Part shown: positions 9,716-13,255 of the stretch, one piece after another
Layout of the letters: each line of letters starts with the position of its first letter
Position numbering within the stretch: position 1 is the stretch's first letter
IMG/VR virus record: IMGVR_UViG_3300020194_000314
Span: 1-28,600 of that record
Reading direction: 5' to 3' (one strand)
Length of the DNA: 28,600 nucleotides
Origin: a virus
The notes under the pieces: model-generated
Databases searched by the model: none
Told to the model about the DNA's origin: nothing
Seen by the model: the letters and a program-made list of their open reading frames with translations, nothing else
Made by a program: the position numbers and the translations under genes

Positions 9716-11357
9716 AAACTTTCTATACTTAGTTTGGAAACATTTAAATCTGCCTGACCCTACCGAGCTACAGTACGACATAGCGGAGTACTTGCAACAC
9801 GGCCCTAAGCGGTCTGTTATCATGGCGTTCCGGGGAGTAGGTAAGAGTTGGATAACATCTGCTTTTGTAGTACATCAGCTACTGCTTAATCCATCTAAAA
9901 ACATACTTGTTGTATCAGCCAGTAAGAATAGATCGGATGACTTCTCTACCTTTACCCTTCGTATCATCCAAGAGATTCCTATACTACAAGGATTAAAACC
10001 ATCAGAGAACCAACGATTCAGTAAGATAGCATTTGATGTAGGGCCAGCTCCTGCGTCTCACGCACCCTCTGTTAAGTCCCTAGGTATATCGTCACAGCTC
10101 ACAGGTTCCCGTGCAGACATCATCGTAGCGGACGACGTAGAGGTAGCTAATAACAGTGCTACTCAAGGAATGAGGGATAAGCTGGATGAACAAGTAAAAG
10201 AGTTCGACGCTATTGTTAAACCGCTGGACTCCTCCCGTATCATCTTTCTTGGTACTCCTCAATGTGAGGACAGTATATACAACAAACTGCGAGAGAGGGG
10301 CTACAAGAGCCGTATATGGCCTTCAGAGTATCCAGATGAGGTAGAAGCTACTAACAACTATGGAGGCGATCTAGCACCCCTTATAGCGGATAACATAGCT
10401 CCTGATACTGTCGGTACTTCTACAGAACCCTTACGGTTCACTGATCTCGACCTAGAAGAACGTAAGATGAGTTACGGTCGTACCGGGTACGCTCTTCAGT
10501 TCATGTTGAACCCGAAGCTGTCTGATGCTGATCGATACCCACTAAAGATTAACGATCTGATTATATCTGATGTAGATGTAGACCTAGCTCCTGAAAAGAT
10601 TGTGTGGTCATCTGACCCGGATAATACGGATCGTGACCTCCCAAATGTCGGATTGGCGGGGGATCGATTTAGGAGACCCTTTTCCACTGTAGGTGATATG
10701 ATACCGTACAGCGGCTCTGTGTTATCTATTGACCCCAGTGGACGTGGTAAGGACGAGACAGGGTACGCTGTGGTTAAGATGCTTAACGGACAACTGTACG
10801 TACCTGATGCTGGTGGTATAAAAGGTGGGTACGACGAAAGCACCCTTAAACAACTGGTAGCTATAGCAAAGGATAACAAAGTTAATATCGTTGTTATAGA
10901 GTCTAACTTTGGAGACGGTATGTTTATGGAGCTGATTAAACCTCTGTTTAGAACAACATACCCGGTAACCATAGAAGAAGTTAGACATAACAAACAAAAG
11001 GAGCTACGTATCGTTGATGTAATGGAACCAGTACTTAACGCTCATAGACTTGTTGTTGATCCTAAAGTTATAACAAATGATTACAGATCAGCTCTTAGCT
11101 ACCCTATAGAACAACAGACCAGATATATGTTAATGTATCAGCTATCACGGATAACAAGAGATAAAGGATCACTGGTACACGATGACCGTCTTGACGCACT
11201 ATCAATCGCTGTTGGTTATTGGACGCAGCAGATGGCTGCTAACGCTGACCAATCGATGGTTGATAGACAACAAGAACTACTTCATAAAGAACTACAAGAC
11301 TTCACGGATAGCTTCCATAAGCGTAATAACAAAGCTGTAGCTGTCACTTGGATGTGA
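9666..11357 (+). CDS. Terminase large subunit, T7 gp19-like packaging ATPase/nuclease
   Basis: A 563-residue packaging motor, close to T7 gp19 (586). The ATPase has Walker A 'AFRGVGKSW' (K60) and Walker B 'DIIVADDVE' (D156, D157), with a coupling-type 'FLGTPQ' at 194-199. The nuclease domain shows RNase H-like acidic positions: D356 in 'LSIDPSGRGKDET', E412 in 'VVIESNFGDGMF', and D506/D507/D510 in 'HDDRLDALSIA'. An in-frame TAA at 9651 leaves TTG 9666 as the first usable start, inside the small-subunit gene, and no ATG precedes the Walker A motif. The gene ends at the boundary to the 577-nt noncoding segment, as expected for the last late gene of a T7-like genome. Confidence 0.93.
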   Translation: MKKKNNIEIPPKLKDFRNFLYLVWKHLNLPDPTELQYDIAEYLQHGPKRSVIMAFRGVGKSWITSAFVVHQLLLNPSKNILVVSASKNRSDDFSTFTLRIIQEIPILQGLKPSENQRFSKIAFDVGPAPASHAPSVKSLGISSQLTGSRADIIVADDVEVANNSATQGMRDKLDEQVKEFDAIVKPLDSSRIIFLGTPQCEDSIYNKLRERGYKSRIWPSEYPDEVEATNNYGGDLAPLIADNIAPDTVGTSTEPLRFTDLDLEERKMSYGRTGYALQFMLNPKLSDADRYPLKINDLIISDVDVDLAPEKIVWSSDPDNTDRDLPNVGLAGDRFRRPFSTVGDMIPYSGSVLSIDPSGRGKDETGYAVVKMLNGQLYVPDAGGIKGGYDESTLKQLVAIAKDNKVNIVVIESNFGDGMFMELIKPLFRTTYPVTIEEVRHNKQKELRIVDVMEPVLNAHRLVVDPKVITNDYRSALSYPIEQQTRYMLMYQLSRITRDKGSLVHDDRLDALSIAVGYWTQQMAANADQSMVDRQQELLHKELQDFTDSFHKRNNKAVAVTWM

Positions 11358-12358: not shown

Positions 12359-12684
12359 CACTTCGCTACAGCTGTTCAAAAGGTTTTAGTCGGAAAAATC
12401 TGAAAGGCTAATATAACGCTGTGTATCCGTCCGTTACCCCCGCATGTACCCGCAAGATTCTTATAGGGAGGGGGGATGTATTGCTTCGTACTCTATGTAT
12501 TATGTCTAATTAGTTTTGTTGATAATCAACGATTTACGCAAACATCGCCAGTTTCCTGCTGATCTATTGCTTAATTTTCTTCGTTATTGCAAGTAAGTTG
12601 CAGTAAGAATCGGTACTAATACTTTCGTTGTTAGTGTATTTATGTATTTACTCTTGTTTGTATTTTTCGCTTTTCAGGTTCAAA
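12359..12684 (+). other. Noncoding stretch with phage-promoter-like TATAGGGAG and a dyad
   Basis: No convincing gene. TATAGGGAG at 12462-12470 equals the melting and initiation part (-4 to +5) of the T7 promoter consensus, here followed by more G's; the upstream recognition half does not match T7, as expected for a diverged polymerase. GTTGATAATCAAC (12518-12530) is a 6-bp dyad around one base, operator-like. TAATATAACG (12409-12418) resembles A/T motifs in leaders elsewhere in the window. The remainder is T-rich leader-like DNA leading into the repeat array at 12685. Confidence 0.45.
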
Positions 12685-12787
12685 TGTATAAAAAATATAC
12701 ACTAGTCTGTATAGAAAATATACACGATGTATAAAAAATATACACATGCTGTATAAAAATTAGACACATTGTATAGGAATTATGCAC
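12685..12787 (+). repeat. Five tandem 18-bp dyad repeats (iteron/operator array)
   Basis: Five copies start at 12685, 12708, 12728, 12750 and 12770, so spacings are 23, 20, 22 and 20 bp, about two helical turns. Copies 1 and 3 are identical (TGTATAAAAAATATACAC). Copy 2 has one change; copies 4 and 5 diverge in the right half. Each intact copy is a dyad, TGTATA-N5-TATACA. An inverted half site (TATACA) follows at 12791-12796. The regular phase puts bound proteins on one DNA face. An operator array for the gene at 12898 or a replication-origin iteron set are the two main readings. Confidence 0.88.
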
Positions 12788-12800
12788 CACTATACAGCAA

Positions 12801-12866
12801 TTTTGATTGGCATGGTGTTTGCTAATAAGGGGTAGTTCTTTCTCAAGGGTCAGTTTCCTGATCCTT
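12801..12866 (+). promoter_or_regulatory. Candidate extended -10 promoter and leader hairpin downstream of the iterons
   Basis: TGCTAATAA (12820-12828) fits an extended -10 element; TTTTGA (12801-12806) would be a poor -35 at 16-nt spacing. The predicted transcript then contains AAGGGTCAG-TTTC-CTGATCCTT (12845-12866), a 9-bp stem with one wobble and no T tract, before ATG 12898. The promoter is only suggested by the sequence; the hairpin is clear. Confidence 0.4.
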
Positions 12867-12897
12867 CTAAATAAACCAATAAAAAATACTAAATACC

Positions 12898-13113
12898 ATG
12901 AATGATACAAAAACACTAATTAACAAGGTTAAAGCTATCGGTAATCAAGTTGACCGGGTCAGTAATCAAGTGGATCGGGCCACTCAGGCACTTCGCAATC
13001 AAGAATTGCGTAGAATCATGAAATCACAGCCCAAAACGCATACTGAGAAAGTGGACATCGTAGATGCACTGCATATGATAGCTAATGACATCAATCCGTC
13101 CATCCTTCGTTAA
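12898..13113 (+). CDS. Small helical hypothetical protein of the iteron cassette
   Basis: A 71-residue basic, probably all-helical protein. Residues ~15-35 contain a near-duplicated unit, 'GNQVDRVSNQVDRATQALRNQ', suggesting a coiled coil. The C-terminal part ('EKVDIVDALHMIANDINPSILR') reads as a second helix pair. No known family is recognised. It is a single-gene transcription unit: the iteron array and a candidate promoter lie upstream, and an intrinsic terminator begins 12 nt downstream. This arrangement suggests either an autoregulated DNA-binding protein acting on the repeats or a moron-like insertion. The leader (AATACTAAATACC) has no Shine-Dalgarno sequence. Confidence 0.65.
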   Translation: MNDTKTLINKVKAIGNQVDRVSNQVDRATQALRNQELRRIMKSQPKTHTEKVDIVDALHMIANDINPSILR

Positions 13114-13125
13114 CATTCAACCTTT

Positions 13126-13157
13126 AAACCTCACCTTTAATCGGGTGAGGTTTTTTT
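13126..13157 (+). terminator. Intrinsic terminator after the iteron-cassette gene
   Basis: AAACCTCACC (13126-13135) pairs perfectly with GGTGAGGTTT (13144-13153) around an 8-nt loop, and a run of seven T's spans 13151-13157. It isolates the 12898 gene from the downstream early genes. Confidence 0.94.
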
Positions 13158-13202: not shown

Positions 13203-13255
13203 GACAGCTTACCTGTCCGTATATTTAAGGGAGCAAGACAGCTTACCTGTCCGTA
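13203..13255 (+). repeat. Two 19-bp direct repeats, each a GACAG/CTGTC hairpin
   Basis: GACAGCTTACCTGTCCGTA occurs perfectly at 13203-13221 and 13237-13255, a 34-bp period. Each copy contains a 5-bp stem (GACAG/CTGTC) with loop CTTAC. TTTAAGGGAGC (13224-13234) lies between them and resembles a T7-type initiation site. The pair sits upstream of the operon starting at 13290 and is a good candidate for a promoter or regulator site. Confidence 0.85.

Follow-up and report, generated by a model that had tools for sequence, protein, structure and literature searches.

A compact cassette at the head of the early genes of an uncultured marine T7-like phage very probably constitutes a first early promoter that depends on host sigma-54 and is activated from an enhancer, as judged from its sequence and that of its relatives. 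By placing what resembles a complete bacterial sigma-54 promoter, with a row of activator sites, ahead of the first early gene, the phage probably makes the onset of infection dependent on a signal sensed by the host cell. The window, i.e. the whole stretch of 28,600 nucleotides analyzed, contains the following elements:

12657..12681, + strand, conserved anchor TTTGTATTTTTCGCTTTTCAGGTTC, followed in relatives by one of several array types
12685..12786, + strand, type A array of five TGTATA-N5-TATACA dyads, read as putative activator (UAS) sites
12808..12823, + strand, sigma-54 core TGGCATGGTGTTTGCT (-24 TGGCA, -12 TTGCT), a consensus match conserved in relatives
12834..12845, + strand, predicted transcription start (A at 12834, with +1 counted from the -12 C) and conserved initial block AGTTCTTTCTCA
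12845..12866, + strand, leader stem-loop, found in relatives at the same position with a different sequence
12898..13113, + strand, ORF71, the first early gene, encoding a short helical protein of 71 amino acids
13126..13153, + strand, intrinsic terminator ending the cassette (hairpin and T-run)

The window is a permuted fragment in which late genes are followed by the terminase large subunit (ending at 11357), small early genes, and then the single-subunit RNA polymerase (16354), SSB, primase-helicase, DNA polymerase and exonuclease. The cassette is flanked by the terminase side and the early genes. Identity of the RNA polymerase to that of the best-matching annotated phages is below about 31%, and relatives of 78–100% are encoded on many marine contigs. 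By terminase, the closest annotated phage is Ayaqvirus S45C18 (65%), in whose early region a search for a sigma-54 core found none; annotated phages searched with the cassette, as DNA and as protein, gave no match. A search for tRNA genes found none either. Shine-Dalgarno sequences are not enriched at gene starts between 4780 and 27988 of the window (5 of 31, against 14% by chance), and an absence of such enrichment is typical of Bacteroidota. For this phylum, control of chaperone genes by sigma-54 has been reported (PMC12316311). A block made of a C-run and a G-run (12436-12475), located between anchor and terminase side, is strongly conserved in the relatives read and is a candidate for a concatemer junction or the physical end of the genome.

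The dyad array is far beyond chance. Its dyads start at 12685, 12708, 12728, 12750 and 12770, with start-to-start spacings of 23, 20, 22 and 20 bp; three are perfect and two carry one mismatch. Five sites with at most one mismatch within 102 bp compare with an average of 0.2 in dinucleotide shuffles, and the 500 shuffled windows never contained more than two sites clustered per 120 bp. The array described in an earlier sequence-only reading is therefore real, with a repeat unit of 17 bp and not of 18 bp as was claimed. A gap of 21 bp separates the dyads from the core. Sigma-54 promoters commonly, though not obligatorily, have an IHF bend site between the activator sites and the core; in the window, this gap contains none. 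An IHF consensus, AATCAACGATTTA, does occur at 12524-12536, about 280 bp upstream of the core, and its GTTGATWATCAAC element directly precedes the core in type B relatives.

The core matches TGGCACG-N4-TTGCW at 11 of 12 positions and keeps the GG and GC dinucleotides (GG-N10-GC). No other site in the 28.6 kb scores 10 or more out of 12, and 0.09 matches at 11 or more are expected per shuffled window; in the loci from the first two scans, scores of at least 11 occur solely at the orthologous place. The candidate promoter of the sequence-only reading thus holds as a match to a sigma-54 core and does not hold as a sigma-70 promoter, matches to the latter being no more numerous in the region than in shuffles. 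Position +1 falls on the A of AGTTCTTTCTCA in the window, in L008, L012, L053, L055, L060, L088, L094 and L225, and also in the first promoter of L099 and the second of L093. The block starts 1 base later in the second promoter of L099, and 2–3 bases later in L057, L049, L082 and the first promoter of L093. A start-site block fixed relative to the core is the pattern expected of a working promoter.

Downstream of this start, the RNA 12834-12900 has a folding energy of -11.6 kcal/mol (z = -3.3), which bears out the stem-loop leader noticed earlier. The 71-residue gene, likewise described as helical, is predicted to fold into a 42-residue helix and a short helix (residues 2-43 and 54-64, mean pLDDT 81). 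Its family shares the motif LRxIM...KVDIxDAL, and a search of ORF71 for known DNA-binding domains found none. As the first protein made, ORF71 may act on host machinery, which is a guess. In L100 and in the second cassette of L099, it is replaced by a 26-amino-acid ORF with a similar DI[IV]xAL motif; this ORF, MNNTENQIDIVNALEIIFAEHGDKLS, is the sole gene of a complete sigma-54 cassette (L100:476-556; L099 second cassette). The hairpin and T-run have the look of a terminator and recur after the gene in relatives; the terminator of the sequence-only reading is confirmed. Just past it lies an exact 19-bp direct repeat, GACAGCTTACCTGTCCGTA, at 13203-13221 and 13237-13255, which is found at the same place in relatives, resembles the Bacteroidota -33/-7 promoter (TTTG...TATATTTA) and may be an early promoter or a processing hairpin.

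The core, the start-site block and the layout of short ORF and terminator recur in relatives, and at least six types of array follow the conserved anchor. Type A (TGTATA-N5-TATACA) is found in the window, L057, L094, L099 and L104, and also in L100 and L103, and type B (GTGTCA/TGTCAC) in L008, L012, L048, L053, L055, L060, L082, L088 and L093. Both accompany a sigma-54 core. Types C–F (CGATCA, TCTCAA, GATTGAAAC and GTTCA..TGAAC) generally have none. Over 71 unique orthologous regions, a core (score at least 9) is present in 14 of 14 A/B regions versus 7 of 57 others, with a Fisher p of about 5e-10 that is inflated by the shared ancestry of the regions. On the RNA polymerase tree, about six trait changes are seen, at least four of them on well-supported branches, and sister pairs carry different arrays: the window (A) with L008 (B), and L060 (B) with L066 (C). 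A phylogeny-corrected pair test gives an agreement of 3.8 out of 4 on average, with only four fully independent pairs. One protein family sits behind two unrelated array types. The modules of types C–F replace the sigma-54 module after the anchor in L017, L026, L032, L065, L066 and others; they have half-sites at a period of 9–11 bp, often with TTGACA downstream, and probably represent other activator or operator codes.

From the center of the last dyad to the -24 GG, the distance is 30/31 bp in the window, L094, L099 and L100, 21 bp in L057, L093 and the minus strand of L100, and 72 and 76 bp in L103. Type A is compact and its distances are mostly helically phased, 30/31 and 21 bp being one turn apart. 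In seven type B relatives an IHF consensus lies at -27/-28 from the core, and in L082, also of type B, it is in reverse.

The cassette behaves as a moron-like, self-contained unit, one of the possibilities raised by the sequence-only reading: it has its own promoter and terminator, is absent from close relatives and from most related phages, and occurs in tandem in related contigs (three promoters in L099; a B-type followed by an A-type promoter in L093). In L128, a remnant of the ORF71 C-terminus follows the anchor, with no array and no core, and from this sequence the cassette seems to have been deleted.

Similar arrangements occur in other viruses. A scan of viral contigs for tandem type A dyads retrieved 16 contigs, and a core lies near the dyads in L093, L094, L099, L100, L103 and L104 of the wider group, L103 having one ahead of each of two early operons. 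The unrelated, GC-richer L096 and L098 contain a perfect core about 200 bp downstream of the dyads; the TGTATA-type arrays of L092, L097 and L101 have no sigma-54 core nearby. Scanning for dyad plus core added L208 (GC 0.56, four degenerate dyads, core TGGCACGGTATGTGCT) and L207 (one dyad). For type B, 38 viral contigs were found, corresponding, besides the T7-like clade, to about 18 unrelated lineages as grouped by eye, against a chance level of about 4 contigs roughly estimated from base frequencies. A further observation concerns L212, L218, L223, L224, L233, L237 and L239, unrelated viral contigs with an elaborate GTGAC-N7-GTCAC-N3-GTGAC array ahead of a sigma-54 core, which is strong in several of the lineages. 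Another is a 76.6-kb viral contig (L214:11062-11474) with a sigma-54 core and a TGTCAC array, in which an ORF resembling, by eye, a small heat-shock protein starts 29 bases after the core start. The wider proposition is that in many unrelated phages early genes are controlled by host sigma-54, with enhancer arrays exchanged like cartridges, so that each phage reads a host signal of its own before it commits to infection; this has about an even chance of being true.

In cells, tandem dyads occur at 20 places among 84,980 bacterial and archaeal species. A correctly oriented core (score at least 11) lies within 250 bp in 5 of these 20 dyad pairs versus 0.18 expected, the five amounting to about three lineages. 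Half of the Desulfobacterota-type pairs (4 of 8) are without a clear core, a Desulfobacterota scan for a dyad-core gap of 40–70 bp gave 2 of 198, and no dyad with a core 6–36 bp away was found in 395 Bacteroidota genomes. One Desulfobacterota MAG (L194) contains a response-regulator bEBP, a sensor kinase, two dyads 32 bp apart and a perfect core. Its dyads lie between the kinase-bEBP operon and a gene resembling the Metal_resist matches of L188 and L196, a layout that recalls ZraSR-zraP. In L201 (Clostridium brassicae), two dyads identical to those of the window directly adjoin the end of a gene for a Fis-HTH bEBP. Dyad pairs exactly 32 bp apart are found in the Desulfobacterota-type MAGs L187, L188, L190, L193, L194, L196 and L199, several of them between kinase and Metal_resist-like genes, and by their sequence look like an undescribed ZraR-like regulon.

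The mechanism proposed for the sigma-54 promoter would begin soon after DNA entry, with host RNA polymerase and sigma-54 occupying the core and staying silent. A host AAA+ enhancer-binding protein, possibly a bEBP whose HTH is of the Fis type, similar to the ZraR/HydG-like regulators adjoining the same dyads in bacteria, would then oligomerize on the array and bring about open-complex formation. The first early transcript would encode ORF71 and end at its own terminator. Relatives that swap the array for the second dyad type, usually together with an IHF bend site, would change the signal that is read and keep the promoter and the cassette architecture. A promoter awaiting a host activator would make early transcription dependent on a stress or nutrient signal of the host. 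As a counterpoint, the dyads are nearer the core, at 21 bp, than classical enhancers are.

The activator is likeliest supplied by the host, because a search of 12 phage records, several of them fragments, found no Sigma54_activat (bEBP) domain. The same result makes it decidedly improbable that the promoter is a true sigma-54 one served by a protein of the phage, such as one carried in by the virion, even though many phage proteins lack a known function and such a protein would explain the use of one array by different phages. Also unlikely, if somewhat less so, is an operator role of the array, in which ORF71 or a host protein, as repressor or autoregulator, would control an ordinary early promoter. 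Tandem dyads adjoining a promoter, with a gene directly downstream, have the usual look of an operator. However, the promoter fits sigma-54, which requires an activator, and ORF71 is a long predicted helix with no known DNA-binding domain. Its homologues, moreover, occur behind two unrelated array types: when co-occurrence of repeats and gene was checked, relatives were found to retain the gene with other repeats. Autoregulation by the 71-residue protein, as suggested earlier, is disfavored since arrays change while the ORF71 family stays.

Two readings unrelated to transcription are weakened by the arrangement of the arrays. Short terminal repeats of the T7 SRL/SRR kind, serving concatemer processing at a genome end, would be expected between terminase and early genes, where the array and the conserved C-run/G-run block are found. 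Yet L099, L093 and L103 have arrays within early cassettes arranged in tandem and ahead of a second early operon, always upstream of a core, and the short terminal repeats of T7 are not dyads with a promoter; this possibility is very slight. The AT-rich tandem repeats adjoining a small gene had also suggested a second, iteron-type replication origin with its own initiator. That this is so is scarcely credible, for there is no initiator domain in ORF71 or its neighbors and no change of skew, array and gene are missing from most relatives, and the array is geometrically tied to the promoter. All three rivals, autoregulation included, lose weight through the exchange of arrays, their presence inside tandem cassettes, and the lack of an initiator or a skew change.

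The usual view is that lytic phages begin from sigma-70 promoters that are strong and constitutive. A start from sigma-54 stays silent until a host enhancer-binding protein is activated; infection would then depend on the physiology of the host, and which signal is read would be written in the enhancer sequence. Promoter and array together form a sequence code by which such phages could be found in metagenomes, and suggest that control regions, besides receptor proteins, are swapped during phage adaptation to hosts. Sigma-54 promoters and phage use of host two-component control are already known; for lytic T7-like phages, the open-access literature searched contained no report of a first early promoter that uses sigma-54 and has exchangeable enhancers. 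The earlier remark that no such arrays are known in T7-like phages passes over the short terminal repeats of T7, but sigma-54 enhancer arrays beside early genes do seem unreported in the literature searched.

The order of early genes, single-subunit RNA polymerase and replication genes is that of T7, in which host sigma-70 promoters A1-A3 are used before the phage RNA polymerase, whereas here the first early promoter is sigma-54-like. The putative sigma-54-like protein encoded by a T7-like phage (PMC7693777), a weak HHpred match, is a different thing. Phage morons share with the cassette an own promoter, a small gene, an own terminator and patchy presence, but not its fixed place, swapped enhancers and tandem repetition in some relatives. 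In cyanophages, genes come under host PhoBR control via pho boxes (PMC10976474); a host two-component signal governs viral genes there too, with pho boxes on particular genes rather than sigma-54 at the first early promoter. The nearest likeness is to bacterial sigma-54/bEBP promoters of the ZraSR-zraP type; in Salmonella, zraP is listed as dependent on ZraR and sigma-54 (PMC3844500). The resemblance extends to the -24/-12 core, the upstream tandem dyads, the IHF site of B-type relatives and the dyad consensus, which is identical next to the bEBP genes of L194 and L201. Unlike its bacterial counterparts, the phage promoter has arrays of 4–6 dyads located 11–21 bp from the core and no activator gene nearby, and the gene that it would drive is the first early one of a lytic virus.
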